Shown in pieces: positions 5,423 to 23,122 of a stretch of DNA of 64,000 bases. This DNA comes from Phaeacidiphilus oryzae TH49 (lineage in GTDB: Bacteria; Actinomycetota; Actinomycetes; Streptomycetales; Streptomycetaceae), in contig NZ_JQMQ01000005.1 in NCBI RefSeq assembly GCF_000744815.1, positions 6,591,801-6,655,800 of the forward strand, given 5' to 3'. Under the pieces are notes generated by a model. The model did no database searches. It worked only from the letters and a program-made list of their open reading frames with translations, and was not told the DNA's origin. Made by a program: the position numbers and the translations under genes. Within the stretch, counting starts at the first letter, position 1, and each line of letters opens with the position of its first letter.

Positions 5423-5494
5423 GGGGACTCTGGGGGTCTCTTGGGGGGACTGCCCAAGGGCCGCCGGGGGACTGCCCGGAGGCTGTCGGGGACT
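5423..5494. repeat. four GGGGACT repeats at 22, 22 and 21 bp
   Basis: Exact copies of GGGGACT occur at 5423, 5445, 5467 and 5488 in the spacer between the P450 stop and the ferredoxin start. The last copy overlaps the P450 stop codon. The spacing equals two turns of the helix. On the mRNA strand they read AGTCCCC. Function unknown. Confidence 0.8.
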
Positions 5495-6755
5495 ACCAGG
5501 TGACGGGGAGTTCATAGACGCCGTAGACGATGCCGTCGTGCTTGAACTCGATCCGCTCCGGCTCGGTGGCCAGTGCCAGGGTCGGGATGCGGCGGTAGAG
5601 GGTGCCGTAGACGACCTGGAGCTCCATCCGGGCCAGCGGCTGGCCGAGGCACTGGTGGACGCCGTAGCCGAAGGCGACGTGGCGGCGGGCGTCCCGGGTG
5701 AGGTCCAGGCGGTCGGGGTCGGCGAAGGCCCCGGCGTCCCGGTTGGCGATGTCGTTGGCGAAGACCAGGCCGTCCCCGGCCCGGATCGTCTGGCCGCCGA
5801 TCTCGATGTCCTCCAGCGCCACCCGCCGGCGACCGGAGTGGGTGATGTTGAGGTACCGCAGCAGTTCCTCGACCGCCGAGGCGACCAGAGCGGGGTCCTC
5901 CGCCTCGCGGAGGAGGGCGAGCTGGTCCGGGTTGCGGAGCAGTGCCAGGGTGCCGAGGGCGATCATGTTCGCGGTGGTCTCGTGCCCGGCGGCCAGCAGG
6001 AGGACGCCCAGCCGGGCCGCCTCGCGCCGGGTCATCTCGCCGGTGGCGACCCGCTCGGTGGCCAGCCGGGACAGGACGTCGTCCCGGGGGTGGGCGAGCT
6101 TCTCGGCCAGCAGCCCGTCCAGGTAGTCGGTGAGGGCGCCGTTGGCGGCGTCCACCTCCTCGGCGGTCGAGGTCCTGCGGACCACGATCCGGGTGTTGCG
6201 CTGGAAGAACTCGTGCTCCTGGTACGGCACGCCGAGCAGTTCCGAGATGACCAGGCTGGGCACGGGCAGCGCAAAGGCGTCGACCAGGTCGGCCGGCTTC
6301 GGCCCGGCGAGGATCTCGTCGATCAGGTCGTCCACGATCCTCTGCACGGCCGGCCGCATGGCCTCGATCCGCCGGATGGTGAACGGGGCCGTCACCATCC
6401 GCCGGTGCCGGGCGTGCTCGGGGTCGTCCATGGTGAGGAAGGTCCGCAGGACGCCGCTGGAGGTCCGGCCGCCGGCGCTGCGGTGGGGATAGCCGGGGTG
6501 CTCGGAGTCCGCGCTGATCCGGGGGTCGCCGATGAGGGCCCGGAAGTGGTCGTACCGGGTGATCAGCCAGGGGGTGGAGCCGTCCCAGATGCGGACCCGG
6601 GAGACGGGCTCCTCCGCCTGCAGCGCCTGGAGGTTCGGGGGCGGGTCGAAGGGGCAGCCGGCCGCCCGCGGCGAGGGGAACTCGGGCAGCTCGGGCAGCT
6701 CGGGCGGTCCGGCTTCGTCGGTCTCGGCGGACGCTTCGGGGAGGGTGTCGGTCAT
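5493..6755 (-). CDS. cytochrome P450, CYP105-like
   Basis: This is a 420-residue soluble bacterial P450. AGHETT in the I helix is at residues 256-261, the ExxR pair is E297/R300, and the heme ligand is Cys369 in FGYGVHQCLGQPLAR. Overall features resemble the Streptomyces CYP105 family, which oxidises diverse natural products and xenobiotics. It heads an operon with its own ferredoxin and ferredoxin reductase. Upstream lies a 15-bp palindrome that also precedes the second P450, so a shared TetR regulator is likely. It is close in sequence to the P450 at 7570-8856, suggesting an old duplication. Substrate unknown. Confidence 0.93.
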   Translation of the reverse strand: MTDTLPEASAETDEAGPPELPELPEFPSPRAAGCPFDPPPNLQALQAEEPVSRVRIWDGSTPWLITRYDHFRALIGDPRISADSEHPGYPHRSAGGRTSSGVLRTFLTMDDPEHARHRRMVTAPFTIRRIEAMRPAVQRIVDDLIDEILAGPKPADLVDAFALPVPSLVISELLGVPYQEHEFFQRNTRIVVRRTSTAEEVDAANGALTDYLDGLLAEKLAHPRDDVLSRLATERVATGEMTRREAARLGVLLLAAGHETTANMIALGTLALLRNPDQLALLREAEDPALVASAVEELLRYLNITHSGRRRVALEDIEIGGQTIRAGDGLVFANDIANRDAGAFADPDRLDLTRDARRHVAFGYGVHQCLGQPLARMELQVVYGTLYRRIPTLALATEPERIEFKHDGIVYGVYELPVTW

Positions 6756-6867: not shown

Positions 6868-7503
6868 CTATTCGGCCAGCGCCAGACCGAGGAGCTCGTC
6901 GGCCATCTCGGCGATCGCCGCCCGGTCCGCCGGGAACGGCATCGCCATCGCCAGGGCCACCATGCCGTGGAGGGAGGACCAGACCAGCCTGGCCACCCGG
7001 GCGTCGCTCGGAGCCGCCTCGTCCCGCGGGCCGCCCGCCGGATCGTTCCGGCAGGCCGCGACGGCCTCGGTCCAGGCCTGCGAGACCTCCCACAGCGGGT
7101 GGGGGCTGGCCTCCGGGCGGGCCACCTCTATCCGCTCGATCGCGAACATCAGCCGGTAGTGCTTGGGGTGGTCGAAGGCGAACCCGCAGTACGCCTGCGC
7201 CATCGCGCGCAGCGCGGCGCGCGGGCCGTCCACCGCGCCCTCCTCCCGCGCCTCTCGCAGGCATTCGGTCAGGCGGTGGTAGAGCTGCTGGGTCAGCGCC
7301 TCCATCAGCTCCGCGCGGTCCCGGAAGTGGAGATAGATGCTCGGTGCCGCGATCCCCACCTCCCGGGCCACCGCGCGGAGGGACAGGTCGCCCTCCCGGC
7401 CGGACCGCATCAGCAGCCGCGCGGCGGCCACCAGGATCTCCTGCCGCAGCGCCCCGCCCTCACCGCGTCTGCTGGGCGTACGCCGCTTGAACTCGTCGGA
7501 CAC
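6868..7503 (-). CDS. TetR family transcriptional regulator
   Basis: The 211-residue protein has an N-terminal HTH (EILVAAARLLMRSG ... LSLRAVAREVGIAAPSIYLH, residues 23-59). A C-terminal ligand domain of the type seen in TetR_C_33-like regulators includes DHPKHYRLMFAIE. The GTG start is preceded by AGAGGAAG. The gene lies between two similar P450 genes, all on the minus strand. Both P450 promoters carry CCTAAC-N3-GTTAGG, and its own promoter has a 12/15 match, so it probably represses both P450s and itself until a substrate-like ligand binds. Confidence 0.9.
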   Translation of the reverse strand: MSDEFKRRTPSRRGEGGALRQEILVAAARLLMRSGREGDLSLRAVAREVGIAAPSIYLHFRDRAELMEALTQQLYHRLTECLREAREEGAVDGPRAALRAMAQAYCGFAFDHPKHYRLMFAIERIEVARPEASPHPLWEVSQAWTEAVAACRNDPAGGPRDEAAPSDARVARLVWSSLHGMVALAMAMPFPADRAAIAEMADELLGLALAE

Positions 7504-7569: not shown

Positions 7570-8856
7570 TCACCAGGTGACGGGGAGCCGGTAGACGCCG
7601 TAGATCAGCGCGTCGTGCTTGAACGGGATCTCGTCGAGGCCGGCGGCCAGGCGCAGGGTGGGGATGCGGCGGTAGAGGGTGCCGTAGACGACCTGGAGCT
7701 CCATCCGGGCCAGCGGCTGGCCGAGGCACTGGTGGACGCCGAAGCCGAAGGCGACGTGCCGGCGGGCGTCGCGGTGGATGTCGAGCCGGTCGGGGTCGCC
7801 GGTGAAGGCCTCGGCGTCCCGGTTGCCGATGTCGTTGGCGAAGACCAGCGGGTCGCCCGCCTTGATCAGGACGTCGCCCAGGCGGATGTCCTCCAGGGCG
7901 ACCCGGCTGCGGCCGGTGTGGACGATGTTGAGGTAGCGCAGCAGCTCCTCCACCGCGGCGGCGACCGTCCTGGGGTCCTCCGCCTCGCGCAACTCGGCCA
8001 GCTGGTCGGGGTGCTGGAGGAGGGCGAGGGTGCCGAGGGCGATCATGTTGGCGGTGGTCTCGTGGCCGGCGATGAGCAGCAGCCGGCCGATCCGGGCGGC
8101 CTCGGCGCGGTTGAGCTCGCCGGTCCGGGTGCGCTGCGCCAGTTCGGTCATCACGTCCTCGCCGGGCTCGGCGAGTTTGCGGCCGACCAGGTCGTCCAGA
8201 TAGTCGAGGAGCTCCTTGATCGCCGTGGAGGCGTCCTCGGCACTGGTGCCGCGGTTGATCAGGGCCCGGCTGCGGCTCTGGAAGAAGTCGTGGTCGGCAT
8301 AGGGGACGCCGAGGAGGGCGCAGATCACCAGTGAGGGGACCGGGAGGGCGAAGGCCTCCACCAGGTCGGCGGGCCTGGGGCCGGCCAGCATCCGGTCGAT
8401 GAGGTCGTCCACGATGCCCTGCACGGTGGGGCGCAGCGCCTCCACCCGCTTGATGGCGAACGGCGCGGTGACCATCCGGCGCTGGCGGGCGTGCTCCGGG
8501 TCGTCCATCGAGATGAAGGTGCGGCCCTGTCCGCGGCTCTGCTTGGTGCCGGGGCTGGAGTGGGGGTAGTGGGGGTGGGTGTTGTCGGCGCTCACCCGGG
8601 GGTCGCCGAGGAGGGCGCGCTGGTCGGCGTGGCGGGTGATCAGCCAGGGGGTGCTGCCGTCCCACAGCCGCACCCTGCTCGCCGGGGCCTCGCGCTGCAA
8701 CGCGCTCAGCTCGGGCGGCGGGTCGAAGGGGCAGCCGGTGGCCCGGGCGAAGGGATAGTCCGGGATCGGGGCCGAGGGGGTCGAGGGGGCCGAGGAGGCA
8801 GTGGCGGGGACGGTGGGGGCGGAGGGGGCGGCGGCGGACTCGGCGGCAGGCGTCAT
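7570..8856 (-). CDS. cytochrome P450, CYP105-like (second copy)
   Basis: The 428-residue protein carries AGHETT, EELLRYLN with the ExxR pair, and FGFGVHQCLGQPLAR with the heme cysteine. Much of it matches the first P450, including WDGSTPWLITR, MDDPEHARQRRMVTAPF and the C-terminal YGVYRLPVTW. The N-terminal 40 residues are a low-complexity Ala/Ser/Pro/Thr stretch. ATG 8856 follows TGGAGCCGGA. There is no redox partner beside it, so it may use the ferredoxin pair of the first P450 operon. The operator at 8939-8953 suggests co-regulation by the adjacent TetR protein. Confidence 0.92.
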   Translation of the reverse strand: MTPAAESAAAPSAPTVPATASSAPSTPSAPIPDYPFARATGCPFDPPPELSALQREAPASRVRLWDGSTPWLITRHADQRALLGDPRVSADNTHPHYPHSSPGTKQSRGQGRTFISMDDPEHARQRRMVTAPFAIKRVEALRPTVQGIVDDLIDRMLAGPRPADLVEAFALPVPSLVICALLGVPYADHDFFQSRSRALINRGTSAEDASTAIKELLDYLDDLVGRKLAEPGEDVMTELAQRTRTGELNRAEAARIGRLLLIAGHETTANMIALGTLALLQHPDQLAELREAEDPRTVAAAVEELLRYLNIVHTGRSRVALEDIRLGDVLIKAGDPLVFANDIGNRDAEAFTGDPDRLDIHRDARRHVAFGFGVHQCLGQPLARMELQVVYGTLYRRIPTLRLAAGLDEIPFKHDALIYGVYRLPVTW

Positions 8857-10729: not shown

Positions 10730-11038
10730 TCAGGCCTCCTCGACGTCCGAGAAGAGCAGCCGCACCCCGCCGGTCGCCAGGTCGAACACCTTGGCCACGA
10801 AGGCCGAGGCCTCCTCGGTGGTCACGGCCCGGCTGGCCGCGTCGTAGTCGGTGAAGTACAGGTCGAGGACCCGATAGGCCGGGGTCGGGCTGCCGTCCTC
10901 CTTCGGCCAGACCTTGGCGCTCTCGATCCGCGTCACTCCGGGGATCTGCTTCGCCAGCCTGATCTGCTCGCGGTGGCCGGCCTCGAACTCCTCCGGGGAC
11001 TTCGGGTTCTCGTAGATCGCGGTGATCTTCGTCGGCAT
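10730..11038 (-). CDS. EthD-family small protein
   Basis: The 102-residue protein begins MPTKITAIYENPKSPEEFEA and has the compact alpha/beta ferredoxin-like layout of EthD and related dimeric proteins. These often accompany degradation or polyketide-type pathways as small isomerase or cyclase-like enzymes. It is the last gene of a minus-strand run, starting 22 bp after the decarboxylase stop. The chemistry here cannot be named. Confidence 0.7.
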   Translation of the reverse strand: MPTKITAIYENPKSPEEFEAGHREQIRLAKQIPGVTRIESAKVWPKEDGSPTPAYRVLDLYFTDYDAASRAVTTEEASAFVAKVFDLATGGVRLLFSDVEEA

Positions 11039-11060
11039 GGTTCCGGCTCCTTCTCCGCCC

Positions 11061-12716
11061 TTACCGGGCCTTCCAGTTGGCATTGTCGGGAATCGACTTG
11101 TCGGGCACCACGACCTGGATGAGCGACGGGCTTCTGGTGTTCGCCATCGCACCCGCCACGGCGTCCATCAATCCGCCGTAGGTGTCCACTCGCCACCCCT
11201 GGCAGCCGAACACCTCGGCCAGCCTGCTGTAGTTCCAGGGGTGGAGCAGGCATGACCGGTAGAACGGCTCGTCGGAATGGAAGACCGAGGCGTCGGCGAG
11301 CCATTGCTCCACGCCGTAGACGCCGTTGTCGATCACGAAGATGATCGGGTCGAGTCCGAACCGGGTCTGCGTCGAGAGGCATTGGGCGGTCATCTGGAAA
11401 CCGCCGTCCCCGGAGAAGACCATCACCCGCTGGTCGGGCCGCTTCGCCAGGCAGAGTCCGGTCGCGGCCGGCGCGCTGTAGCCGATCGACGAGTACGAGG
11501 ACTGGACGACGAACCCGCCCGCGCCGACCACCTTGAGCAGCAGGCTCCCGAAGTAGTTCATGCTGGCGTCGGCACCGATGAGGGTGTGCCGGTTGATGTA
11601 CTGCTGCATGAAGTCGTAGAACCCCTGGTACGTGATCTCGCCCGAGGTGCGCAGGGACGGCACGGTGTAGGTGGTCTTGGTGAGGGTCTTCCACGCCTTG
11701 GGCGGGATCTTCGCCGCCAGCAGGCCGTCGACCAGATGCTCCAGCGCGACCTGTCCGGAGAATCGGGTGCCGAACTTGACCGCGTCGAACGAGGCGAACG
11801 CGGTCTTGTCGTAGTCCGGGCTCCAGCCCAGCGAGTTGATGTCGGTCAGCCACACGCCGAGGGCCAGGATGAAGTCGGAGTCCCGGGCCAGGTCGGCGGC
11901 GGCCTCCGAGGAGGCCTGGCCGTCCAGGACGCCGATGAACAGCTCGTCGTCCTCGGACAGCACGGCCTTGCTGAGGAGTTCGGTGACGAAGGGGATGTTC
12001 AGCTGCCGGATCAGGCTCAGCGTCTTCTCCTGCAGGCCGAGCCGGTCGACCTCGACGCCGACCCAGATCAGCGGATTCTCCGCGTGCTCCAGCGCGGTGC
12101 GGATCTCCGCGATCGACTCCTCCAGGCTGCCCGGGTCGGACAGCACCTCGGCCGGCCTCAGACGGCCCTTCGGCGGTTCGCACTCCAGGTCCACCATGTC
12201 CTGGAGGAGCTCGATATAGACCGGGCGGCGCTGGCTGACGCACTGCGTCAGCGCGTAGTCGATCAGCATCGGCGCGGTCACCGGATTCTCGATCCGCACC
12301 GTCGCCGCCGTGATGTGCTCGAACGACTGCATGTCCGTCTCGCGCCCGCTGATGAAGTGATGGGCGCTGAAACCGGTCTGCTCGAAGACGATGGTCTTCT
12401 GGATGCTCGGCGTGCCGTTGATCAGCACGATCGGCACCTTCTCGGCGTAGGCGCCGGCCACCGCGTTCACGGCGCACAGCGCGCCCGCGGAATAGGTGAC
12501 GCAGAGCGCGCCGATTCCCCGCAGCCTCGCGTAGCCGTCCGCCGCGTAACCGGCGTTCACCTCGTTGACTTCCTCGATGATCTCGATGCTGCTCGGGGTG
12601 ACGTACCGGTTCAGCCAGTCGATCGAGTAGTCGCCCGCGATGGAGAACAGATGCCCCAGGCCGAGCTGGCTGAGCCGGTCCACCAGATACTTGCCTACCG
12701 TGCTGGTCTCGCTCAT
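11061..12716 (-). CDS. ThDP-dependent 2-keto acid decarboxylase (PDC/IPDC-like)
   Basis: The 551-residue protein has the three-domain layout of pyruvate and indolepyruvate decarboxylases. Near the N-terminus EEVNEVNAGYAADGYAR contains the glutamate that activates the thiamin ring. TGFSAHHFISG holds the His-His pair expected of decarboxylases, and FSGDGGFQMTAQCLS ... VIDNGVYG is the ThDP/Mg motif. It should decarboxylate a 2-keto acid to an aldehyde in the cytoplasm. It follows the metallo-hydrolase by 19 bp. Alternative substrates (phenylpyruvate, sugar-derived keto acids, sulfopyruvate-like) cannot be separated by reading. Confidence 0.87.
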   Translation of the reverse strand: MSETSTVGKYLVDRLSQLGLGHLFSIAGDYSIDWLNRYVTPSSIEIIEEVNEVNAGYAADGYARLRGIGALCVTYSAGALCAVNAVAGAYAEKVPIVLINGTPSIQKTIVFEQTGFSAHHFISGRETDMQSFEHITAATVRIENPVTAPMLIDYALTQCVSQRRPVYIELLQDMVDLECEPPKGRLRPAEVLSDPGSLEESIAEIRTALEHAENPLIWVGVEVDRLGLQEKTLSLIRQLNIPFVTELLSKAVLSEDDELFIGVLDGQASSEAAADLARDSDFILALGVWLTDINSLGWSPDYDKTAFASFDAVKFGTRFSGQVALEHLVDGLLAAKIPPKAWKTLTKTTYTVPSLRTSGEITYQGFYDFMQQYINRHTLIGADASMNYFGSLLLKVVGAGGFVVQSSYSSIGYSAPAATGLCLAKRPDQRVMVFSGDGGFQMTAQCLSTQTRFGLDPIIFVIDNGVYGVEQWLADASVFHSDEPFYRSCLLHPWNYSRLAEVFGCQGWRVDTYGGLMDAVAGAMANTRSPSLIQVVVPDKSIPDNANWKAR

Positions 12717-12735
12717 GGATGGGATCCCTCCGCGG

Positions 12736-13563
12736 TCAGTAGTCGCTGGCTCCGCCGAACAACCGGGGCAGGTAGATGTCGAATATCCCCGGGCATCTGC
12801 GTTCGGGATACCGCTGGAGCAGGAACGCCCGGAAGGCGTCGCCCGTCAGCCCGTCGCCGATGGCCTGCCGGGCGGCCGAGAGGTACTCGATGACGCGGGC
12901 GACCTCGTTCTTGTCGGCCGGCAGGCCGTGGCCCGGCATGAACAGCTCGTACTCCGAGACCAGCATCTGCTGCAGGACCCGCACCCAGTGCTCCAGGTGC
13001 TTCGTCAGATAGGGGTGGGTGCCGCTGTAGAGCAGGTCCTGGGCGAAGTACACGCCCAGTTCGGGGAGTCCGACGGTGAGGTGGTAGTCGATCTCGGTGT
13101 CCGTCACCCGGTCGAAGACGTATCTGACCCCGTCGATGGTCTCCTCGCCGGGCCGGACGCCGTGCTTGGGCACGACGATCTGGTCCGGGACGAGGTCGCC
13201 CAGCTTCCAGTGGTCGGCGCGGGACTCCTCGCCGTGCTCCTGGATGAAGTTCATGGTCTCCGGCAGGGTGTGCACCGGCACGTCGGTGAACGCCGCCCCC
13301 AGGCCGAACCAGTGGTCCGGGTGCCGGTGGGAGAGGTACAGCCGCTCGATCGGCTTGCCGAGGCCGTCCGCGTACTCCCGGAAGGCCCGCGCGTAGGGCA
13401 CCAGGAACTGGCTGTCGATCAGGACGAGTTGGTTGCGGGTCTCGACGATGTGGGTGGCGTTGGCGATGTTGCCGGCGGCGAAGGAGGAGACGAAGGTGTG
13501 GATGCGGACGTCGCCGGCCTGCTTGACCACCATGGCGATGGGGTCTGTGACCTGACCGAGCAT
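12736..13563 (-). CDS. metallo-beta-lactamase fold hydrolase
   Basis: The 275-residue protein has the HxHxDH zinc motif in LSHRHPDHWFGLG (about residues 77-89). Further metal ligands are in FAQDLLYSG (Asp) and ELFMPGHGLPADK (His). The C-terminus ends RLFGGASDY. Such enzymes hydrolyse esters, lactones or thioesters. The start ATG 13563 follows AAAGGCTCC. It is separated from the upstream TIM-barrel gene by 104 bp of GGTTCGG repeats but by only 19 bp from the decarboxylase, so it belongs to the operon. A lactonase acting after a sugar dehydrogenase is plausible but not proven. Confidence 0.85.
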   Translation of the reverse strand: MLGQVTDPIAMVVKQAGDVRIHTFVSSFAAGNIANATHIVETRNQLVLIDSQFLVPYARAFREYADGLGKPIERLYLSHRHPDHWFGLGAAFTDVPVHTLPETMNFIQEHGEESRADHWKLGDLVPDQIVVPKHGVRPGEETIDGVRYVFDRVTDTEIDYHLTVGLPELGVYFAQDLLYSGTHPYLTKHLEHWVRVLQQMLVSEYELFMPGHGLPADKNEVARVIEYLSAARQAIGDGLTGDAFRAFLLQRYPERRCPGIFDIYLPRLFGGASDY

Positions 13564-13584
13564 CAGGAGCCTTTCGGGTCGGGC

Positions 13585-13656
13585 GGTTCGGACGCGGGTC
13601 GCGCGGTTCGGGTGGTTCGGCTGGTTCGGCTGGTTCGGACGGGTGGGGCGGTTCGG
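13585..13656. repeat. six GGTTCGG repeats, partly 9-bp tandem
   Basis: GGTTCGG occurs at 13585, 13605, 13614, 13623, 13632 and 13650; the middle three form a perfect 9-bp tandem. They fill most of the spacer between two genes of the operon. Confidence 0.8.
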
Positions 13657-13667
13657 GGGCTCCGGGC

Positions 13668-14672
13668 TCAGGCGGGGGAGGCGGTCCGCTCCCGCAGTTC
13701 CTCCAGCGCGGCCGCGGCCACCTGGTAGGCGCTGTCCACGCCGGGCACCGGGTCGTCCTCGCCGGGCCGCCAGAACCGCCGGCGGGCCATCCGCATCGAG
13801 GAGACGAACGGCGGGATCGCGTTGAACACCTCGACCAGGTACGGCCCCCGGTAGACCGGATCGATCTCGTCGCGGACCACCTGCCACGGGATCCAGCTGT
13901 CCCGCACCGCCCCCCGGTCGGGGGCGGAGATGTGGACGTAGTGGAGGCGGTTCTGCCGGACCGCCCGCGCCAGATCCGCGGAGAAGGCCGACGGGCCGCG
14001 GCTCTCCATCACCAGCTGGGCGGTGTCGACGGTCACCCCGCCCTGCGGGTGGTCGAGGGTGTCGAGGAAGTCCAGTACCTCCGCGACCATGTTGGGCGGG
14101 GGCGTCTCCCAGCTCTTCACCGGCTCGATGGCGAGCTTCACCTCGCGGGCCTCGGCGTACTCCGACAGCTCCTCGAAGACCGCGCGGGCCGCCCGGTAGC
14201 GGGGCTCCATCCAGTCCTGGAGGGCGTCGCTCCACAGCGGCTCGCCGTCGTCGGTGAGCGGGAAGACGCCGTAGGGGTAGAGGAACGGCCCGGACATGAT
14301 GGAGTCCCCGCCCAGCACCCGGGTGATCTCGACCCGGGACTCCAGATAGGACAGGGCCTGCCGGCGCTGCTCCTCGTACGGCGAGGTCGGGTCGAAGGTG
14401 CGGGTGGTCCCCACGTTGGTGGTGAACTTCACCCCGGAGAGCCCCGCCCGGTCGAACGCCTTCCGCAGGCCGATGTAGGCGTCGATCTCCCGCTTGTGGT
14501 CGACGCCCGGCGGCTGGGTGGCGATGTGGACGTCGAAGCCGCGGTAGCCCATCTCGGTGAGGGCCTTCAGATGGCCGATCAGGGTCTGGCCGTAGCGGGC
14601 GTCCTCCGGCCGCAGGTCGGCCGTGAACATGAAGAAGCTGAAGAACACGTCTCGTCCGGACGGGGGGTTCAT
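13668..14672 (-). CDS. sugar phosphate isomerase/epimerase-like TIM barrel protein
   Basis: The 334-residue protein fits the xylose isomerase-like (AP endonuclease 2) TIM barrel family. Landmarks are GYRGFDVHIATQPPG, LAIEPVKSWETPPPN with a metal-ligand glutamate, GGVTVDTAQLVM with an aspartate, HYVHISAPDRG with a histidine, and PYLVEVFNAIPPF with the last glutamate. Relatives epimerise or isomerise sugars, and some catalyse beta-elimination from 3-keto-C-glycosides. It begins 19 bp after the second TIM-barrel gene. The pairing of two such enzymes with a GMC flavoprotein suggests processing of keto-sugars; the exact reaction is unknown. Confidence 0.85.
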   Translation of the reverse strand: MNPPSGRDVFFSFFMFTADLRPEDARYGQTLIGHLKALTEMGYRGFDVHIATQPPGVDHKREIDAYIGLRKAFDRAGLSGVKFTTNVGTTRTFDPTSPYEEQRRQALSYLESRVEITRVLGGDSIMSGPFLYPYGVFPLTDDGEPLWSDALQDWMEPRYRAARAVFEELSEYAEAREVKLAIEPVKSWETPPPNMVAEVLDFLDTLDHPQGGVTVDTAQLVMESRGPSAFSADLARAVRQNRLHYVHISAPDRGAVRDSWIPWQVVRDEIDPVYRGPYLVEVFNAIPPFVSSMRMARRRFWRPGEDDPVPGVDSAYQVAAAALEELRERTASPA

Positions 14673-14691
14673 TCCTGCTGTCCTCCGTTCC

Positions 14692-15606
14692 CTACCAGCC
14701 CAGGACGTCGGCGAGGTAGGCGCGGGCCTTCTTGGCGTACGCGAGCGGTACGGCCTTGTTCGGGTCCTGCTCGGCCTCGACCATCAGCCAGCCCTGGTAG
14801 CCGGCGTCGGCCAGCACCTCCAGGATCGGCCGGAAGTCGATCCCGCCGTCCCCCGGCACGGTGAAGACGCCGAGCTCGACGGCCTCCTGGAAGGAGAGGC
14901 CCTCCTCCCGCACCCGGCTGACGACCTCGGGCCGGACGTCCTTGAGGTGGACGTGGCCGATCCGGTCGGCGTGCGCCCGGGCCAGCTCCAGCGGGTCGTC
15001 GCCGGCGAAGGCGATGTGGGCGGTGTCCAGCAGCAGGTGGACCAGGTCCGGATCGGTCGAGTCCATCAGCCGGTCGACGTCGGCCCGGGTCATCACCCCG
15101 GTCCCCATGTGGTGGTGGTAGCTGAGCTTCATCCCGGCCGAGTTGGCGATCTTGCCGAGCTCCTCCAGACCCGAGGTGAGGTTCTCCCACTGGGCGTTGG
15201 TGAAGACCGGCCGGTTGGCGAACACGTCCACCGGGAGGAGATGCGAGGAGGCCCCGAACTCGGCCACCACCAACTCGGTGCCGCCCAGCGCCTTGATGTG
15301 GGCGAGGGTCTCCTCGAAGGCGGCGACCGTCTTCTGCCGCATCTTGGCGACGGTGAAGTAGGTGCTCGTCCAGGGCTCCGAGACGCGCAGCCCGCGAAGG
15401 TCCAGAGCGGCCTTCAGCTCGGCGGCGTCCGAGGGGTACTTGTGCCCGATGCTGCAGCCCTGGAAGCCGGCCAGCGCCATCTCGCTCACGGCCTGGCCGA
15501 ACGGGATGCCCGCGTCGATGGCGGGGAAGTCGTCGTTCCACCACAGAGTGCAGCAGACGCCGAGTCTCACCCGGTCCGGGCCGAGGCGGGCGGCCGGATC
15601 CGTCAT
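14692..15606 (-). CDS. IolE-like sugar isomerase/dehydratase TIM barrel protein
   Basis: The 304-residue protein carries LGVCCTLWWNDDFPAIDAG at its start, GFQGCSIGHKYP, a YHHHMGTGVMT stretch, LLLDTAHIAFAGDDP, GHVHLKDVRPE and GWLMVEAEQDPNKA. These match the inosose dehydratase (IolE) branch of the TIM barrel family, with Glu/Asp/His metal ligands. Its ATG overlaps the stop of the dehydrogenase subunit by four bases, so the two are co-translated. No other inositol catabolic gene is nearby, so a keto-sugar or keto-cyclitol other than inosose may be the substrate. Confidence 0.85.
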   Translation of the reverse strand: MTDPAARLGPDRVRLGVCCTLWWNDDFPAIDAGIPFGQAVSEMALAGFQGCSIGHKYPSDAAELKAALDLRGLRVSEPWTSTYFTVAKMRQKTVAAFEETLAHIKALGGTELVVAEFGASSHLLPVDVFANRPVFTNAQWENLTSGLEELGKIANSAGMKLSYHHHMGTGVMTRADVDRLMDSTDPDLVHLLLDTAHIAFAGDDPLELARAHADRIGHVHLKDVRPEVVSRVREEGLSFQEAVELGVFTVPGDGGIDFRPILEVLADAGYQGWLMVEAEQDPNKAVPLAYAKKARAYLADVLGW

Positions 15607-16181
15607 TTCTTCGCCCCTCTCAGATAGCGGTCCTCGATGCGGGGCGGCTCGGCCCAGGCCCCGTAGCCGGGGGCCTTGGCGCCGGGCGGGTTCGCCCCGA
15701 TGGCCCGCCACAGCAGCCCCTCCTGATAGGAGGCTGCGGTGACGGTGGACGTCTCGTTGGCGCCGCGGGCGCCGTAGGCGTCGGTCCACTCGGGCGGCAG
15801 GGCGTACCACATCCCGGCGAACCAGAGCTTGATCACGTTGCGGGCCACCGGGCCGATCCGGTCGTCGCTGAAGACCCGGTGGCGCAGCGCCCGGTCGAGC
15901 CGTGCCCGGTCGACGGGATCTTCGCCGACGGGGCCTTTCTCGACGAGGCCTTTCTCGACGGAGCCCCGGTCGCCGCCTGCGGTGTCGCCGGCCGCCTCGG
16001 CCCGCGCGGCCCGGTGGGCGGCCAGCAGGTCGGTCACCACCTCGTCCCCGCAGGCGGCCCGGACCTTGGCCAGATACTGGTGGGCCAGCCCGGTGCCGAG
16101 GAGGTCGGTCTCCCCGAAGGCGGTCAGGTCCACCGAGAGGGCGAGGAACTCATCGAAGGGGACGGGCGACTTGTCGTTCAT
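15603..16181 (-). CDS. small subunit of a membrane-type FAD sugar dehydrogenase (sorbitol dehydrogenase-like)
   Basis: The 192-residue protein opens FDEFLALSVDLTAFGETDL and has LAHQYLAKVRAACGDEVV plus a C-terminal NVIKLWFAGMWYALPPEW block. This resembles the small subunit family that accompanies GMC-type FAD dehydrogenases such as D-sorbitol or fructose dehydrogenase. A charged segment with repeats (VEKGLVEKGPVGED) lies in the middle. It overlaps the ferritin-like gene upstream and the IolE-like gene downstream by four bases each. It probably binds the GMC subunit encoded two genes earlier. The family call is moderate because the similarity is short. Confidence 0.65.
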   Translation of the reverse strand: MNDKSPVPFDEFLALSVDLTAFGETDLLGTGLAHQYLAKVRAACGDEVVTDLLAAHRAARAEAAGDTAGGDRGSVEKGLVEKGPVGEDPVDRARLDRALRHRVFSDDRIGPVARNVIKLWFAGMWYALPPEWTDAYGARGANETSTVTAASYQEGLLWRAIGANPPGAKAPGYGAWAEPPRIEDRYLRGAKK

Positions 16182-17245
16182 CGCTGCACCTCCTGGGTGG
16201 GCTCCGGGATCTCGAAGGTGGGGGCGGCGTGGAGGCCGCCGCTGTCCGGCAGCGGGTTGCGGACCAGCCGGTCGAAGCCGTCGCGCAGCCGGAACATCTC
16301 GTTGACGGCCTCCTTCAGCAGCTCGGGACGCCCGTTGAAGGCCCGGGTCAGCAGCGCCAGGAAGGCCGCGTAGTCGGAGTTGAACTCCCGTGCCACCCGG
16401 GCGAGTTCGGAGCCCGGTGGGTAGTCGGACAGCCGGGCGCTGACCTTCACCTGGTAGACGTCGTCCCAGGAGACGCTGAGCGGCGGCCCGGAGGGCGCCT
16501 CGGGGTCGTCGCCCACCTGGTAGTAGCGGCCGAGCTGGAGCTGGCGGAACCGGTAGTAGTGGGCCAGCTCCCCCTCCGCGTCGTAGATGCCGGAGTCGAG
16601 GCCCTCGCCCTGGGCGGCGATGAACCGCAGCGCCCGCCGGGCCGAGTCCAGGTCGGAGACGGTGGTCACGGCGCCCCCGCCGGAGTAGTAGTACTCCGGC
16701 CCGATCTGCAGCGCCGGGTCCCCGCGGAAGAGCCCGGGGTCGGCGGCCGCCACCTTCTCCAGCCCCTCGATGATCTCCTCGTAGAACTCGCCGATGCTGT
16801 AGAAGTGCATCCCCTCGGCGGTGGGGCTGGAGACCAGCATCGGGCTGCGGTCGCCGGTGGGGATCAGCCGCGCGTCGGCGCTGGGCGCCCGGCCCGGCCG
16901 CTCGATCTTGCAGAAGGTGTCCACCGCCTTGGGGGTGAGCGGCCGCAGGTCGACGGTGAAGTCGTCCTCCCCGTCCGGCAGCCGGGCCGGATAGGAGGGC
17001 ACGAAGCCGGGGCGGGTCAGGTCGGGCTTGCCGCCCACCGCGTTCAGGACGTTGGCGGTCAGGGTCAGATGCAGCATCTCCTCCACCGCGGCCACCCGGA
17101 TGATGTGGGCGGCGTCCGAGTTGGTGGTGGAGCGGATCGAGTAGTAGGCGGTGAGGTAGGTGGGGATGGTCGCGTGCTCCAGCGCCATCGCCGCGTGGAG
17201 GTAGCTGATCAGGTCGTCGCGGTCGCCGATGGTGGACGCGGTCAC
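16178..17245 (-). CDS. ferritin-like domain protein (VioB/RebD N-domain type)
   Basis: The 355-residue protein starts with LHAAMALEHATIPTYLTAYY and continues with AAVEEMLHLTLTANVLNAVG. The two Glu-x2-His pairs are typical of a ferritin-like four-helix di-iron or heme-free domain of the iminophenylpyruvate dimer synthase class. Later segments include FYSIGEFYEEIIEGLEK and GELAHYYRFRQLQLGRYY. In known pathways this domain is linked to oxidative coupling. Here it is wedged between the GMC flavoprotein and its presumed small subunit, with four-base overlaps on both sides, implying a stoichiometric complex. Its GTG start is fixed by that overlap. Function in a sugar pathway would be unusual. Confidence 0.78.
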   Translation of the reverse strand: MTASTIGDRDDLISYLHAAMALEHATIPTYLTAYYSIRSTTNSDAAHIIRVAAVEEMLHLTLTANVLNAVGGKPDLTRPGFVPSYPARLPDGEDDFTVDLRPLTPKAVDTFCKIERPGRAPSADARLIPTGDRSPMLVSSPTAEGMHFYSIGEFYEEIIEGLEKVAAADPGLFRGDPALQIGPEYYYSGGGAVTTVSDLDSARRALRFIAAQGEGLDSGIYDAEGELAHYYRFRQLQLGRYYQVGDDPEAPSGPPLSVSWDDVYQVKVSARLSDYPPGSELARVAREFNSDYAAFLALLTRAFNGRPELLKEAVNEMFRLRDGFDRLVRNPLPDSGGLHAAPTFEIPEPTQEVQR

Positions 17246-19167
17246 CGGGCCACCCCCTCGCTCGGGCGGCCGGGCGCGCCGGCCGAGGTGATGCCGACCG
17301 GCGCGGTGTCCGAGTCGAGCTGGGCCAGCATGGCCCGGGCGCTGCGCAGGCACAGGGCGGCGACGGTGAGGGTGACGTTCGAGGTGCCCACGGTGGGCAT
17401 GCTCCCCCCGCCGACCAGGTAGAGGTTCTGGTGGTCCCAGGACCGCTGGTCGGCGTCGACCACCGAGGCGGCCGGGTCGCTGCCCATGCTGTGGGTGCCG
17501 GCCAGATGGTTGCCGCCGCGGATCTCGTACCCCTCGCCGCCGTACACGGCGTAGCCCCAGAAGTCCGGGTCGTATGCGGTGTGGTCCTCGGCGCCGAGCC
17601 GGGCGAAGATCCGCTTGGACAGCTGCCTGGCGTACGCCACCCCGCGCATCGTGTAGTCGGGGATGTCGTAGGTGAGGACCGGCCGCATGTTCCCCAGATG
17701 GTCGGTGTAGTCCGGGTCCACGGTCACCCGGTTGCTCGGGTTGGCCGGGACCTCGACCATGAACGCCAGCTGGAGCTGCCGGGAGACCCGGTCCACCAGG
17801 CCCTGCCGCAGCGACTCGCCGTAGCGGCCTCCGGCGTCGACGAGGGCGAGGAGGTCGGTCATCGGCGCGCCCCGGGCCCAGCCCCAGCCGTCGTTGTGGA
17901 TGTCGACGCTGAACGCCGCCTGGTGCCGGCGGAATCCGCCGCCGCGCAGGTCGGTGATGCCGCCGGTGCAGTTGGTGCCCCGGAAGGTGCCGGCCACCTC
18001 CGGCAGCAGCGCCCAGGCCAGCAGATAGGCGTGGTCCATGAAGTTGCGGCCCATCAGACCGCTGGAGCCGCGCAGCCCGGAGGCCAGCATCAGCCGCGGG
18101 TTCTCCACCGCGTTGGCGGCCAGCACGAACAGCCGGCCGCGGGCCCGCATGGTGGTGAAGCCGGGGCTGTCGGGCCGGTCGTAGCGCCGGTACTCGATCT
18201 CCGTCACTCGGCCGGTCTCCTCGTCGATGTGCACCTTGTGCGCCACCGCCTGGGCGACCAGGTCGACCCGGCCGCTGCGGAGGGCGGCGGCCAGGGTCTT
18301 GCCGGCGTTGTACTTGGCCTGCACCGGGCAGATCGGCACGCAGTTGTTGTTGCCCTGGCAGCGGCCGCCGACCTCGACCTGGTAGGTGCTCACCGCGCCC
18401 CGCGGCCGGTAGCCCTTCCCGCCGTCGTAGGCCGGGTTGGGGATGCCGTTCCGGCCCTGGGGGAACGGCCTCACCCGCAGCTCCCGGCGCTCGCCGTCCA
18501 GGTGGACCGGCATCCCGTCGACGTCCCGGGCGACCATCCGGTCCAGGTAGGAGAGCGGCAGCCCGCGCATCGGGTACACATAGCCCTCGTCGAAGGAGAT
18601 CCCCAGGTACGCCTGGTCCTCCACGTCGGCGGAGACGCCGATCTCACGCTCGGCCTCGGCGTAGTACGGGGCCAGGTCCTCGTAGCCGAGCGGCCAGTCG
18701 GCCCCCTCGCCGTAGAGGCTGCGCATCCGGAAGTCCTCGGGGAGCATCCGCAGCGTCTTGGCCTCCCAGTGCATGGTGGTGCCGCCGAGGACCCTGGTGT
18801 AGGTGGTGTCGGAGGCGAAGGGCCCGCTCTGCACGAGGTAGGAGGAGGCGTCGGGGGCGCCCGGGGTGATCCGCCGCGCGTCGGTGCCGCGGGGCATCGG
18901 GGCGTTGGCGGCGTCCGGGTAGGGCGCCTGGTTGTCCTTGCTGATCGCCGAGTAGAAGCGGTCGAGGTAGCCCTCGTAGCCGCGGAGGGTGAGGTCCTCG
19001 GCCGGACCCGCCTCCAGGACCAGCACCCGCCGGCCCGCCTCGCTCAGCCGCGCGGCGATCAGCGCGCCGGCGATCCCGCCGCCGACGACGACGGCGTCGT
19101 AGAGGACCTCGGCCGCCGCGGCGGGGTCGGTGCGCTTCGCCGCCCCCTCGGGGAACTTGGCGTACAT
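17242..19167 (-). CDS. GMC family FAD-dependent oxidoreductase
   Basis: The 641-residue protein has the FAD fold VVVGGGIAGALIAARLSEAG at residues 27-46, a TRVLGGTTMHWEAKTLR segment, and the C-terminal HLAGTHSMGSDP and SMPTVGTSNVTLTVAALC motifs. These are GMC landmarks, with an active-site histidine in HLAGTHSMG. A cysteine cluster (C270, C276, C280) precedes QAKYNAGKT, as in multi-subunit sugar dehydrogenases of this superfamily. It should oxidise a sugar hydroxyl to a ketone. No secretion signal is visible. It starts 39 bp after the GH15 stop and overlaps the ferritin-like gene. Pyranose 2- or 3-dehydrogenase or C-glycoside oxidase are candidates. Confidence 0.9.
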   Translation of the reverse strand: MYAKFPEGAAKRTDPAAAAEVLYDAVVVGGGIAGALIAARLSEAGRRVLVLEAGPAEDLTLRGYEGYLDRFYSAISKDNQAPYPDAANAPMPRGTDARRITPGAPDASSYLVQSGPFASDTTYTRVLGGTTMHWEAKTLRMLPEDFRMRSLYGEGADWPLGYEDLAPYYAEAEREIGVSADVEDQAYLGISFDEGYVYPMRGLPLSYLDRMVARDVDGMPVHLDGERRELRVRPFPQGRNGIPNPAYDGGKGYRPRGAVSTYQVEVGGRCQGNNNCVPICPVQAKYNAGKTLAAALRSGRVDLVAQAVAHKVHIDEETGRVTEIEYRRYDRPDSPGFTTMRARGRLFVLAANAVENPRLMLASGLRGSSGLMGRNFMDHAYLLAWALLPEVAGTFRGTNCTGGITDLRGGGFRRHQAAFSVDIHNDGWGWARGAPMTDLLALVDAGGRYGESLRQGLVDRVSRQLQLAFMVEVPANPSNRVTVDPDYTDHLGNMRPVLTYDIPDYTMRGVAYARQLSKRIFARLGAEDHTAYDPDFWGYAVYGGEGYEIRGGNHLAGTHSMGSDPAASVVDADQRSWDHQNLYLVGGGSMPTVGTSNVTLTVAALCLRSARAMLAQLDSDTAPVGITSAGAPGRPSEGVAR

Positions 19168-19206
19168 GGGGCGGTCACCCCTCCTCTGCGAGTCGGTCGG
19201 CCGCGG

Positions 19207-20631
19207 TCACACGGCACCGGACCGGGCTCGCATCGCGGACAGGTAGGAGGCGTAGCTCCAGGTGAGGTTGTGGACACTGCGCTCGAAGCCGGTGCTGCCG
19301 TCGAACTGCTCGGAGAGCTCGAAGTGGTCGCTGTGGTAGACGACCGCCCGCACCATGGCGTCGCCGGTGGCCACCAGAGCGGCGGCGGCAGCGGCCGGGG
19401 CAGTGGAGGCGTCGATGCCGGACTGGGCGAAGAAGGGCGCGGACAGCCCGTCCAGCGGCACCTTGCCGCTCGTCTTCACCTCGGCCGCCAGCCGGTAGTG
19501 GAGCTCGGCGACGTTGCAGGTGGAGAGGGCCCAGGGGTGCCCGCCGAGCACCGGGTGGGAGGTGTCGCCGTCGTAGACGTCGCCCGGGTAGCGGCCGAAC
19601 ATCGGGCCGATGCCGAACTGCTCCTTGTCCGCCTTGTTGATCGGGTAGAAGGCGATGCCGCCCTCCTCCCACTGTGCCCGGAGCTGGGCCGCAGTGGCGA
19701 GCAGTTTGGTGTCGGTCACCGGGACCGCGCCGTAGAGGGCCGCCTGCACGATGTCGATGTTGGGGTCGTAGCCGCTGACCACCGGGTTCTGCGGGGAGGG
19801 CTGGGCGCCGCCGCCCGGGTCGGCCATCATGCTAACGTACTTGGCGCCGTCCCAGTGCCCGGCGAGGGCCTGGCGCAGCCACTTGACGGCGGGGCGCAGC
19901 CCGGTGGGCTTGTCGATGCCGACCACGGTGGAGGCCTGGACCTCCTCGAAGCAGCGCAGCTGGGCGGAGCGGGCGAAGAAGCTGTAGCCGGTGTGCTCCT
20001 CCCAGAGGTTGGTGGTGGTGCCCTGGTAGACGCCGAGGAGGTAGGCCACATTGGCGTTGACCAGGTCCACGGCCCGCTTCTGGGTGCCGAGGTCGAGCTT
20101 GTCGTAGGCGGCCAGGACGGTGAGCGACTGGAGGGCGGGCCCGTCGTTCTGCTCGGTCCACGGACGGGAGTCGCCGGCGATGTTGAAGCAGGCGTGGCCC
20201 TTGGTGGGCTGGGCGTTGGAGTGGCAGAGGTCCGCGAACTGCACGTAGTCGTTGAGGGTCTGCACGGCGCCGTCGGGGGTGGTGGGGAGGTCGGCCTTGG
20301 CCACCTCCATGACCGTGATGGCCCCGTCGCGCACCCAGTTGAAGACGTAGTCCTCGTCGATCCCGGGGGTGTCGGCGGGGAAGGACGGGGCGGCGATGAC
20401 GCAGCCCGGCTTGGAGTCCCGGGAGATGTCGCCCGGGGACTGCGGATCACTGAAGATGAATCCGTCGCTGGCGATGTTCCGGAACATGAAGCTGAACATC
20501 AGCGGGGTGAGCGAGGGCAGGTCGATCGCCCCCGAAGCAAGGGAGACCTGGACATTGGCCCGCCCCTGGGCGGTGCCGGTGATCCGGTTGGTGCGGGCGG
20601 ACGTGCCGGGTGTGCCGGTGGACTCGGACAT
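19207..20631 (-). CDS. glycoside hydrolase family 15 (glucoamylase-like)
   Basis: The 474-residue protein contains the (alpha/alpha)6-barrel glucoamylase motifs: DEDYVFNWVRDGA at 92-104, SRPWTEQNDGPALQSL at about 155-170, LWEEHTGYSFF at 209-219 with the first catalytic glutamate, and HFELSEQFDGSTG near 430-442 with the second. No signal peptide or starch-binding domain is present, so it is probably intracellular and acts on short alpha-glucosides or a glucosylated metabolite. It is the promoter-proximal gene of the nine-gene run, preceded by 518 bp of non-coding DNA. GH15 lacks the secretion expected of a starch degrader, which supports a specialised role. Confidence 0.88.
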   Translation of the reverse strand: MSESTGTPGTSARTNRITGTAQGRANVQVSLASGAIDLPSLTPLMFSFMFRNIASDGFIFSDPQSPGDISRDSKPGCVIAAPSFPADTPGIDEDYVFNWVRDGAITVMEVAKADLPTTPDGAVQTLNDYVQFADLCHSNAQPTKGHACFNIAGDSRPWTEQNDGPALQSLTVLAAYDKLDLGTQKRAVDLVNANVAYLLGVYQGTTTNLWEEHTGYSFFARSAQLRCFEEVQASTVVGIDKPTGLRPAVKWLRQALAGHWDGAKYVSMMADPGGGAQPSPQNPVVSGYDPNIDIVQAALYGAVPVTDTKLLATAAQLRAQWEEGGIAFYPINKADKEQFGIGPMFGRYPGDVYDGDTSHPVLGGHPWALSTCNVAELHYRLAAEVKTSGKVPLDGLSAPFFAQSGIDASTAPAAAAAALVATGDAMVRAVVYHSDHFELSEQFDGSTGFERSVHNLTWSYASYLSAMRARSGAV

Positions 20632-21149: not shown

Positions 21150-22403
21150 TCACCAGGTCACCGGGAGGCGGAAGAGGCCGTTGATCGGTGCGTGGAGCTT
21201 GAACGGGAGTTCGGACTCGGGCATGGCCAGGCGGAGGCCGGGGACCCGGCGCAGCAGCGTCTCGAAGATGATCTGAAGCTCGATCCGGGCCAGCGGCGCG
21301 CCCAGGCACTGGTGGACGCCGAAGCCGAAGGCGAGATGGTCGCGGGCGGCGCGGTGGATGTCGAACCGGTCCGGGTCCGGATAGTGGTCGCCGTCCCGGT
21401 TCCCGGAGAGGTTCAGCGGGATGATCGCCTCGCCGGCCGGGATGGTGGTGCCGCCGATCTCGATGTCCTCCTTGGCCACCCGGACGATGATCAGGTGGAC
21501 GATGCCGAGGTAGCGCAGCAGTTCCTCGACCGCGCCCGGCACCAGCTCCGGCCGGGCGGCCAACTCGGCGCGCTGCTCCGGATGCTGAAGCAGGGTCAGC
21601 ACGCCGAGCGAGGTCATGTTGGCGGTGGTCTCGTGCCCGGCGACCAGCAGGGTGATGCCGGCGTTCAGGACGGCCTCCTCCGGGATGGTCCCCGCCCGGA
21701 CGGCGGCGACCAGCTGGCCGAGGATGTCGTCGCCGGGGTCCGCCAGCCTCCCCTTCGCCGCCACCAGCTCGCCGAGGTAGTCGTGCAGCCGGCGGCGGGC
21801 GGCGGAGGCGGCCTCCGCCGCGCCCGGCCGGTCCGGGTCGCCGCCGCCCAGCAGCTCCTCCGAGGCCCGGTTGAAGAACGGCCGGTCCTCGCTGGGCACG
21901 CCCATGATCCAGGCCAGCACCGTGGACGGGATCGGCAGCGCGAACGCGTCGACCAGGTCCACCGGGCGGTCGGTGCGGGCCAGCATGGCGTCCAGGGTCT
22001 CGTCGACCAGTGCCTGGATCCGCGGGCGCAGTGCCTCGGCCCGCCGGATCAGGAAGTTCTTCCGGAGCAGCCGGCGGAAGACGGTGTGCTGCGGCGGGTC
22101 GGTACGCAGGAAGGAGAGCTGCTCCGGGGGGATCGGGGGGAGGTCGAGCCAGGGGTAGCCGGGCAGGCTGCCGTCCGAGCTGGCCCGCGGGTCCGCGAGC
22201 ACCGCGCGGACGTCGTCGTAGCGGGTGACCAGCCAGCCGGGCCGGCCACCGGTCAGGGTGACCCGGCGTACCGGCTCCTCGGCGCGCAGCCAGGAGTACA
22301 CCGCGGGCGGGTCGATCGGCGGGCGCGGCCAGGGGAAGGGCGCGTCCAGGTCCTGGGCGGGCCGGCGCAGCGGCGGCTGGGGGAGCTGGGCTTCCGTACT
22401 CAT
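21150..22403 (-). CDS. cytochrome P450 (third)
   Basis: The 417-residue protein has LLVAGHETTANM in the I helix, VEELLRYLGIVH with the ExxR pair, and FGFGVHQCLGAPLARIELQ with the heme cysteine. It is more distant from the other two P450s: its N-terminus differs (PWPRPPIDPPAVYSWLRAEE), and it has a longer F-G region with the inserted GGGDPDRPGAAEAA. ATG 22403 follows GAGGTG. No redox partner and no copy of the CCTAAC palindrome are beside it, so it is regulated differently. It is 518 bp downstream in map order from the nine-gene operon but transcribed toward it. Substrate unknown. Confidence 0.92.
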   Translation of the reverse strand: MSTEAQLPQPPLRRPAQDLDAPFPWPRPPIDPPAVYSWLRAEEPVRRVTLTGGRPGWLVTRYDDVRAVLADPRASSDGSLPGYPWLDLPPIPPEQLSFLRTDPPQHTVFRRLLRKNFLIRRAEALRPRIQALVDETLDAMLARTDRPVDLVDAFALPIPSTVLAWIMGVPSEDRPFFNRASEELLGGGDPDRPGAAEAASAARRRLHDYLGELVAAKGRLADPGDDILGQLVAAVRAGTIPEEAVLNAGITLLVAGHETTANMTSLGVLTLLQHPEQRAELAARPELVPGAVEELLRYLGIVHLIIVRVAKEDIEIGGTTIPAGEAIIPLNLSGNRDGDHYPDPDRFDIHRAARDHLAFGFGVHQCLGAPLARIELQIIFETLLRRVPGLRLAMPESELPFKLHAPINGLFRLPVTW

Positions 22404-22645
22404 CCGGGCACCTCGTCCTGATCGGGCCGTCCGGCCGTCGGGCCATCGGGCCGTCGTGGGTGGCCACCGTCCCGGGCGGGCCCCGGACGCCACGGCCGCC
22501 AACATGACGCATCCGGAGCCCCCGCGCAACGGCCCCCCGTCCCGACCGCCACGTTCCAGCCGCCCTGCGGGGACGCCCGCTCGCGGGCGTGCCGGCCGGA
22601 GGTCGGCCACGCGGGGGGGAGGAGGACGCCGCCGGCTCGGCCGGC

Positions 22646-23122
22646 TCAGGCGCCGCCGCTCGCGAGGGCCTGGACGAGGCGGTCGACGAACTCCGCCTGC
22701 GCGGGGTTCAGCCGCCGCCCGGCCTCCGCCGGGTCGAACCACTCCGCGCGGTCCACCTCGGGGAACTCCCTGGTGGTGCCGGACCTCGGCGGCCACTCCA
22801 TGGTGAAGGTGTTGCTCTTCAGCGCGGAGACGTCGAACTCACCCTCGGCGGCCCAGGCGGTCACCAGCTTGCCTCCGCGGAGCCTGATCGTCCCGAGCTC
22901 CAGGAGGCCGTCGCCTCCCACCCGGGCCCCGGTCTCCTCCTCGAACTCCCGAAGCGCCGCCGCGAGGGGATCGTCGCCCTCCTCGTACTCGCCCTTGGGG
23001 ATCGACCACGCGCCGGCGTCCTTCTTCGCCCAGAAGGGGCCGCCGGGATGCACCAGCAGCACCCGTGGCCCGGCGCCGTCCTGGACCCGGTACAGCAGGA
23101 TTCCGGCACTGCGTTTCGGCAC
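22646..23122 (-). CDS. Nudix hydrolase
   Basis: The 158-residue protein carries a complete Nudix box: PKGEYEEGDDPLAAALREFE followed by EETGA, matching Gx5Ex7REUxEExGU. It begins VPKRSAGILLYRV, with GTG 23122 preceded by GGAAAGGA. FWAKKDAGAWSIPKGE precedes the box, as in the family of predicted NTP pyrophosphohydrolases that clean up damaged nucleotides or cleave nucleoside diphosphate derivatives. It is divergent from the RIO kinase gene. Substrate not predictable. Confidence 0.9.
   Translation of the reverse strand: MPKRSAGILLYRVQDGAGPRVLLVHPGGPFWAKKDAGAWSIPKGEYEEGDDPLAAALREFEEETGARVGGDGLLELGTIRLRGGKLVTAWAAEGEFDVSALKSNTFTMEWPPRSGTTREFPEVDRAEWFDPAEAGRRLNPAQAEFVDRLVQALASGGA

Follow-up and report, generated by a model that had tools for sequence, protein, structure and literature searches.

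We analyzed a cluster of nine genes in the genome of the actinobacterium Phaeacidiphilus oryzae TH49 (assembly GCF_000744815.1, contig NZ_JQMQ01000005.1), which lies within a stretch of 64,000 nucleotides (positions 6,591,801–6,655,800 of the forward strand), hereafter called the window, to which all coordinates below refer. The operon consists of nine intact open reading frames (ORFs), all on the minus strand, between positions 10730 and 20631. They encode, in order of transcription, a family 15 glycoside hydrolase (GH15), a flavoprotein of the GMC superfamily, a ferritin-like protein (FER), a small subunit (SS), two TIM barrels (TIM1 and TIM2), a metallo-beta-lactamase-fold protein (MBL), a decarboxylase dependent on thiamine diphosphate (ThDP) and hereafter abbreviated as PDC, and a small protein of the EthD family. 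The codon-position GC of all nine is of the coding type, with values of 0.93–0.98 at third positions. An initial annotation, made from the sequence alone, had described nine minus-strand genes mostly overlapping by 4 bp or separated by 19–39 bp, and this description is accurate if the two classes are taken together: 4-bp overlaps are present at three of the eight junctions (GMC/FER, FER/SS and SS/TIM1), and short gaps at four others (39 bp for GH15/GMC, 19 bp for TIM1/TIM2, 19 bp for MBL/PDC and 22 bp for PDC/EthD). The remaining TIM2/MBL junction is the repeat-filled gap of 104 bp reported by the same annotation (13564–13667, minus strand), with degenerate CCGAACC repeats. This repeat is not conserved, since the corresponding junctions of related loci hold unrelated spacers of 5–59 bp or a short overlap; a conserved role for it was consequently rejected.

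The results of our analysis indicate that this operon is a strongly conserved functional unit, its linkage being far above chance. A homologue search seeded with FER gave 58 loci, about 25 of which keep the order (GH15-)GMC-FER-SS-TIM1-TIM2-MBL-PDC as far as their contigs extend; these belong to seven genera, namely Kitasatospora, Streptomyces, Lentzea, Saccharothrix, Sinomonas, Dactylosporangium and Actinoplanes. EthD (102 amino acids [aa], 10730–11038 with its ATG at 11038, matching TIGR02118) is present in just nine loci and is thus optional. In an even set of 298 Streptomycetaceae genomes, close relatives of GMC (at least 80% identity), FER (at least 80%), TIM1 (at least 85%) and PDC (at least 75%) are all carried by the identical nine genomes, and no genome has just one of them; in one of the nine (G505), GMC is interrupted by a stop and the PDC match is shortened. 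The initial annotation had proposed a single functional unit, which neighbourhoods with rare co-occurrence of these genes would have refuted; the co-occurrence found here supports the proposal. Moreover, Catenuloplanes and Jidongwangia have a close TIM1-TIM2-MBL-PDC half (70–88% identity) joined to a distant GH15-GMC-FER-SS half (40–67%). The same set has therefore been rebuilt from different lineages, which would be hard to explain unless its members shared a function. A chance neighbourhood of unrelated functions is contradicted by this re-assembly of halves, together with the identical genome distribution, the order kept in at least seven genera and the 4-bp overlaps, and we consider its probability negligible. 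More distant versions are found in Nocardioides and Promicromonospora, where GMC-FER-SS is accompanied by a TIM1 of lower similarity and, in some cases, by GH63 and GH13 enzymes replacing GH15. Outside actinobacteria (Azospirillum, Rhizobium, Rhodopila, Singulisphaera and Aquimarina), GMC-FER-SS is combined with an alpha-glucosidase and TIM1, to which TIM2 is usually and a second GMC-SS pair often added.

The GMC protein (641 aa, 17242–19167), which matches PF05199 and PF00732, can be assigned to the catalytic subunits of flavin adenine dinucleotide (FAD)-dependent dehydrogenases of the fructose dehydrogenase (FDH) and glucose dehydrogenase (GDH) type. Its closest solved relatives are the FAD glucose dehydrogenase of Burkholderia cepacia (BcGDH) and the FDH of Gluconobacter. 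Residues C270, C276 and C280 of GMC align with C212, C218 and C222 of BcGDH and, on the basis of this alignment and of the data available for BcGDH (PMC9727119), probably bind a [3Fe-4S] cluster. In BcGDH, Cys213 forms a disulfide with the small subunit (PMC9727119); the operon protein has Q271 in this position and thus no inter-subunit disulfide cysteine. The same pattern, with three cysteines kept and the disulfide cysteine absent, is found in all near GMC relatives examined.

The SS protein (192 aa, 15603–16181) alone matches no Pfam or NCBIfam family. When its predicted model (predicted local distance difference test, pLDDT, 83) is compared with the five FDH/BcGDH small-subunit entries, VIA Z values of 8.2–9.4 are obtained, against 2.3 for the next chain. 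Foldseek by itself gives no match for this model, the sole sequence-level PDB match of SS is the small subunit of FDH (E 0.034), and FAD-SLDH is the commonest weak Pfam match, in 4 of 25 SS members. SS, as modelled, shares the fold of the FDH/BcGDH small subunit. The idea of a GMC and small-subunit complex acting on sugars, already present in the initial annotation, is thereby strengthened, the nearest structures of GMC being those of glucose and fructose dehydrogenases. Both parts are recognizable in the solved complexes (PDB 7w2j/8jej, 6a2u/8hdd), whose GMC subunit carries the three [3Fe-4S] cysteines and whose small subunit is folded like SS, but the operon proteins differ in features beyond the inter-subunit disulfide. 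None of 69 small subunits has a twin-arginine translocation (Tat) leader, and no CxxCH motif of a multiheme cytochrome c is present in about 1,000 neighbouring ORFs from the tested stretch of the window and the 58 loci; what the operon encodes instead is a ferritin-like protein of predicted diiron type, and the enzyme as a whole is predicted to be cytosolic. We infer that GMC, SS and FER represent a cytosolic version of this respiratory enzyme, with the putative diiron protein in the role of the cytochrome.

This candidate partner, FER (355 aa, 16178–17245), belongs to family PF12902 (209 bits). Its AlphaFold2 model (pLDDT 90.7) is a helical bundle, for which Foldseek retrieves PDB entry 3hl1 and ferritins. 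Among the potential diiron ligands, E23, E56, H59 and H229 are invariant in an alignment of 25 rows and E226 is retained in at least 90% of them, and FER is accordingly predicted to be a diiron protein. Family, fold and diiron-type ligands are the same as in other PF12902 proteins, such as 3hl1 and the domains of VioB and RebD. The operon FER differs from these in being a single-domain protein and, within its subfamily, an obligate neighbour of GMC and SS.

GMC, FER and SS constitute a stable core that is found in at least three gene contexts. Besides the arrangement of the operon, there is the combination with aldos-2-ulose dehydratase discussed below, and a third context is seen in Streptomyces loci with the order SS-GMC-FER, other neighbours and no barrels. 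This third context occurs in L147–L150 and L156; L147, L148 and L150 also encode a 284-aa protein that fits no known family and, near SS-GMC-FER, a second GMC-type flavoprotein. Elsewhere, in a group of Streptomyces loci, first TIM2 and next TIM1 is shortened or gone while GMC, FER and SS remain intact. The stepwise loss of the barrels in this group (L063, L065, L066, L070, L073, L075 and L076) suggests an ongoing decay to the minimal core. The association of the three is seen at the level of the genes, and the proteins may form a physical three-part complex, as put forward in the initial annotation.

TIM1 (304 aa, 14692–15606 with its ATG at 15606) is an AP_endonuc_2 barrel that exceeds the equivalog cut-off of IolE, the myo-inosose-2 dehydratase (TIGR04379, 352 vs 290 bits), and keeps the IolE motifs YHHHMGTG, FTVPGDG and VEAEQDP. 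Homology to IolE (PDB 3cny, 9zmu) covers its whole length and includes the active-site motifs, and the keto-sugar dehydration of IolE type envisaged by the initial annotation is well founded in this respect. The same score and motifs would fit a variant of inositol catabolism, in which GMC would oxidize an inositol, possibly glucosylated, to inosose and TIM1 would act as IolE itself. However, the iol genes of the genome containing the window lie in a cluster of their own, with IolD (895 bits) and a divergent IolE-like gene, and three other operon-carrying genomes were found to have no IolD over the cut-off. In a phylogenetic tree, which contains several long branches, TIM1 lies apart from the Rhizobium IolE encoded beside IolD, and its relatives follow pyranose oxidase in other loci. 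TIM1 is thus most likely not the enzyme of inositol catabolism here; we rejected this pathway as first choice because of the separate IolD-linked cluster and of the tree position of TIM1, and regard it as very improbable.

The genomic contexts of TIM1 relatives point to a different sugar chemistry. In five Streptomycetaceae loci (L171–L173, L191 and L192) these relatives follow a pyranose oxidase (POX), which scores 544–588 bits with TIGR02462 where scored (587, 582, 562 and 544; cut-off 544.9) and carries the motifs ATHW and DAF-YG. A DAFHYG loop like theirs characterizes a monosaccharide-specific clade of POX (PMC10807413). In four of the five loci, the propeller of aldos-2-ulose dehydratase (AUDH, PF22301) is encoded beside or near these genes, and two of them have the order GH15-POX-TIM1-AUDH. 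The latter two (L191 and L192, from Streptomyces) are compact GH15(TREH_N)-POX-IolE-like-AUDH clusters that represent a candidate bacterial pathway of the cortalcerone type. The fungal AUDH enzyme has cupin and lectin parts, which are missing in these bacterial proteins. AUDH is also found together with GMC-FER-SS-TIM1 in four loci, all without TIM2, whose position it occupies, while none of about 45 loci with TIM2 (in the operon a second AP_endonuc_2 barrel of 334 aa, 13668–14672) carries AUDH; PF22301 has no match in the genome of the window. Because the contexts of TIM1 swap these parts and none contains both AUDH and TIM2, GMC-FER-SS appears to stand in for POX, and TIM2 for AUDH. AUDH-propeller genes without TIM1 or POX are present in other Streptomycetaceae (L193–L200); among the three of these loci that were read, some have acyltransferase- and UDP-GlcNAc 2-epimerase-like neighbours, which suggests a second use of the AUDH domain.

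The first enzyme of the operon, GH15 (474 aa, 19207–20631), resembles inverting alpha-glucosidases and glucoamylases (PF00723, 97.5 bits; PDB glucoamylases) and has no signal peptide. The motifs W210-E211-E212 and S440-E441-Q442, which contain the catalytic acid/base glutamates (E211/E212 and E441), are conserved in 31 sequences. In sister loci GH15 is swapped for GH63, GH13 or a debranching enzyme, in agreement with the view of the initial annotation that an alpha-glucosidase feeds the pathway; such interchangeable alpha-glucosidases suggest a hydrolysable alpha-glucoside as substrate. At the other end of the operon, MBL (275 aa, 12736–13563 with its ATG at 13563) is a predicted hydrolase of family PF00753 that scores below the cut-off of SoxH-related models. 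PDC (551 aa, 11061–12716) has three TPP enzyme domains and resembles the 2-keto acid decarboxylases of the pyruvate and indolepyruvate decarboxylase (PDC/IPDC) type. Its catalytic set of Asp, ThDP-binding Glu, His-His and Glu (D29, E52, H119-H120 and E470) is retained in 26 of 27 sequences, but the protein fits no named substrate-specific model, as exemplified by indolepyruvate decarboxylase (251 bits vs a cut-off of 946).

Taken together, we propose that the operon encodes a cytosolic pathway of glucose oxidation and dehydration with a three-part GMC-SS-FER dehydrogenase, an interpretation to which we give a probability of about one half. GH15 would act on an alpha-glucan or alpha-glucoside inside the cell, freeing glucose or exposing a glucosyl end. 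The FAD of GMC would then oxidize this sugar, most likely at C2, to the 2-keto-aldose glucosone, with GMC, SS and FER acting as one pyranose dehydrogenase. Electrons would pass from FAD to the putative [3Fe-4S] cluster held by the three cysteines, then to the diiron centre predicted in FER and perhaps to O2, the diiron centre replacing the triheme cytochrome c of fructose and glucose dehydrogenases. Subsequently TIM1, which has the fold and motifs of IolE-type metal-dependent barrels, would dehydrate or tautomerize the cyclic keto-sugar, whereas TIM2 would catalyze the companion elimination or isomerization that may be the task of the AUDH propeller in sister clusters, the product being a dehydrated or rearranged pyranone. 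In the actinobacterial version only, MBL might hydrolyze this product and the PDC-type enzyme decarboxylate a 2-keto acid, with EthD as an accessory protein. The pathway would thus do the work of the POX and AUDH route, by which fungi make sugar-derived antibiotics (cortalcerone), with different enzymes. Its similarities with fungal pyranose 2-oxidase and AUDH (cortalcerone/microthecin) and with the bacterial POX-TIM1-AUDH clusters include the TIM1 relatives, the AUDH of sister loci and the upstream alpha-glucosidase; the differences are GMC-FER-SS in place of POX, TIM2 in place of AUDH in the window, and the extra MBL, decarboxylase and EthD.

Several observations weigh against this interpretation. 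GMC fails the pyranose oxidase model (TIGR02462, 58.5 bits vs the cut-off of 544.9) and the known FAD dehydrogenases of the GMC superfamily oxidize C1, C3 or C5, so that the assignment of C2 derives from context. The ring opening or hydrolysis by MBL and the chain shortening by PDC are suggested by family membership, and no Gfo-type reductase or transporter was found that would clarify whether the pathway runs in a catabolic or a biosynthetic direction. Moreover, there are SS-GMC pairs without FER that keep the same Fe-S cysteines, for which reason FER may not be the sole possible acceptor; the expectation that FER would track these cysteines failed on this point. A strict association of FER with GMC also fails below about 42% identity, where FER relatives occur without GMC (L164–L170). 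Given these FER-less pairs and stand-alone distant FER proteins, the three-gene core is limited to the present branch of the family.

The stand-alone occurrence of distant FER relatives could also be accounted for if FER were not an electron acceptor but worked independently on the sugar product as an oxygenase or coupling enzyme, like the PF12902 domains of the indolocarbazole and violacein enzymes VioB and RebD. The family is common to both, and includes the N-terminal domains of VioB and RebD. Yet GMC and SS stay the neighbours of FER whatever follows, be it IolE barrels, AUDH or a second GMC with the 284-aa protein, while a product-specific enzyme should vary with the pathway; FER is therefore unlikely to be product-specific, and we find this alternative doubtful. 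Going back to FER as the electron acceptor, we suggest with considerable reserve that GMC-SS-FER may constitute an undescribed class of sugar oxidase, namely a cytosolic dehydrogenase of FDH/GDH type in which diiron FER would replace the multiheme cytochrome, take electrons from the [3Fe-4S] cluster and reduce O2. Such an oxidase would have been recruited by at least three pathways, among them a bacterial equivalent of the fungal POX-AUDH route.

The position of sugar oxidation is also central to the principal alternative, that of C3 oxidation followed by beta-elimination as in Agrobacterium tumefaciens. The operon GlycDH-AtOGE-AtHYD-Gfo of this organism cleaves glycosides, AtOGE and AtHYD being TIM barrels (PMC10628242). 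It shares with our operon a flavin dehydrogenase, a small partner and two TIM barrels encoded together, and TIM1 weakly matches 2-hydroxy-3-keto-glucal hydratase. Nevertheless, this match (3.7e-5) is dwarfed by that of TIM1 to the IolE type (1e-69), TIM2 matches neither OGE nor HYD, and no Gfo reductase is found among the nine genes. The barrels thus belong to other subfamilies, and FER, GH15, MBL and PDC are added. The other contexts of TIM1, with AUDH and POX bearing loops of the monosaccharide type, and the hydrolysable alpha-glucoside suggested by the interchangeable alpha-glucosidases also speak against oxidation at C3, which we judge to be unlikely. The related idea of C-glycoside cleavage, raised in the initial annotation, is not supported and was rejected, as neither barrel is a lyase orthologue and the nearest other context of TIM1 consists of POX and AUDH, with no C-glycoside lyase.

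Glucose oxidation and dehydration would make the operon a new version of known sugar oxidation-elimination pathways, in which the diiron partner could be a new enzyme arrangement. We found no published description of this gene set in the open-access literature, which leaves out most subscription papers and thus provides weak evidence. If correct, our interpretation would provide a testable role for a widespread, as yet unassigned ferritin-like family, and would show how a periplasmic respiratory sugar dehydrogenase has been adapted to the cytosol and has dispensed with cytochrome c. It would also reveal bacterial clusters for a glucosone and pyranone chemistry that is known mainly from fungi. 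Proteins annotated as IolE but probably acting on keto-pyranoses would be separated from true inositol enzymes, and the automatic annotation of the TIM1 clade as myo-inosose-2 dehydratase would consequently be wrong. Cytosolic, cytochrome-free relatives of FAD glucose dehydrogenases may further be of interest for biosensors and for the synthesis of 2-keto-sugars.

A few additional features of these loci deserve mention. In a planctomycete metagenome-assembled genome, an AP_endonuc_2 barrel fused to an alpha-acetolactate decarboxylase domain lies beside GMC-FER-SS-TIM1 (L081, 13641–15323 of that locus), and a related pair is found in another locus (L059). In several Streptomyces, genes for large, membrane-anchored AAA/NACHT NTPases of the STAND type are located upstream of GMC (five loci, L032, L033, L034, L037 and L048) and beside POX (two loci, L173 and L191), the proteins of the two groups being about 27% alike over their NTPase part. 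A function in anti-phage defence was dismissed, there being no significant PADLOC match among the genes tested. Relatives of the operon do not share the cytochrome P450 genes that flank it in the window, nor the PD40 protein, and these were excluded from it. The P450 genes are three in number and related to one another; together with a flanking ferredoxin-reductase-like flavoprotein they lie at 5493–6755, approximately 7570–8840, 21150–22796 and 3975–5366, with a TetR regulator encoded at 6868–7503, and the relatives do not share these genes.

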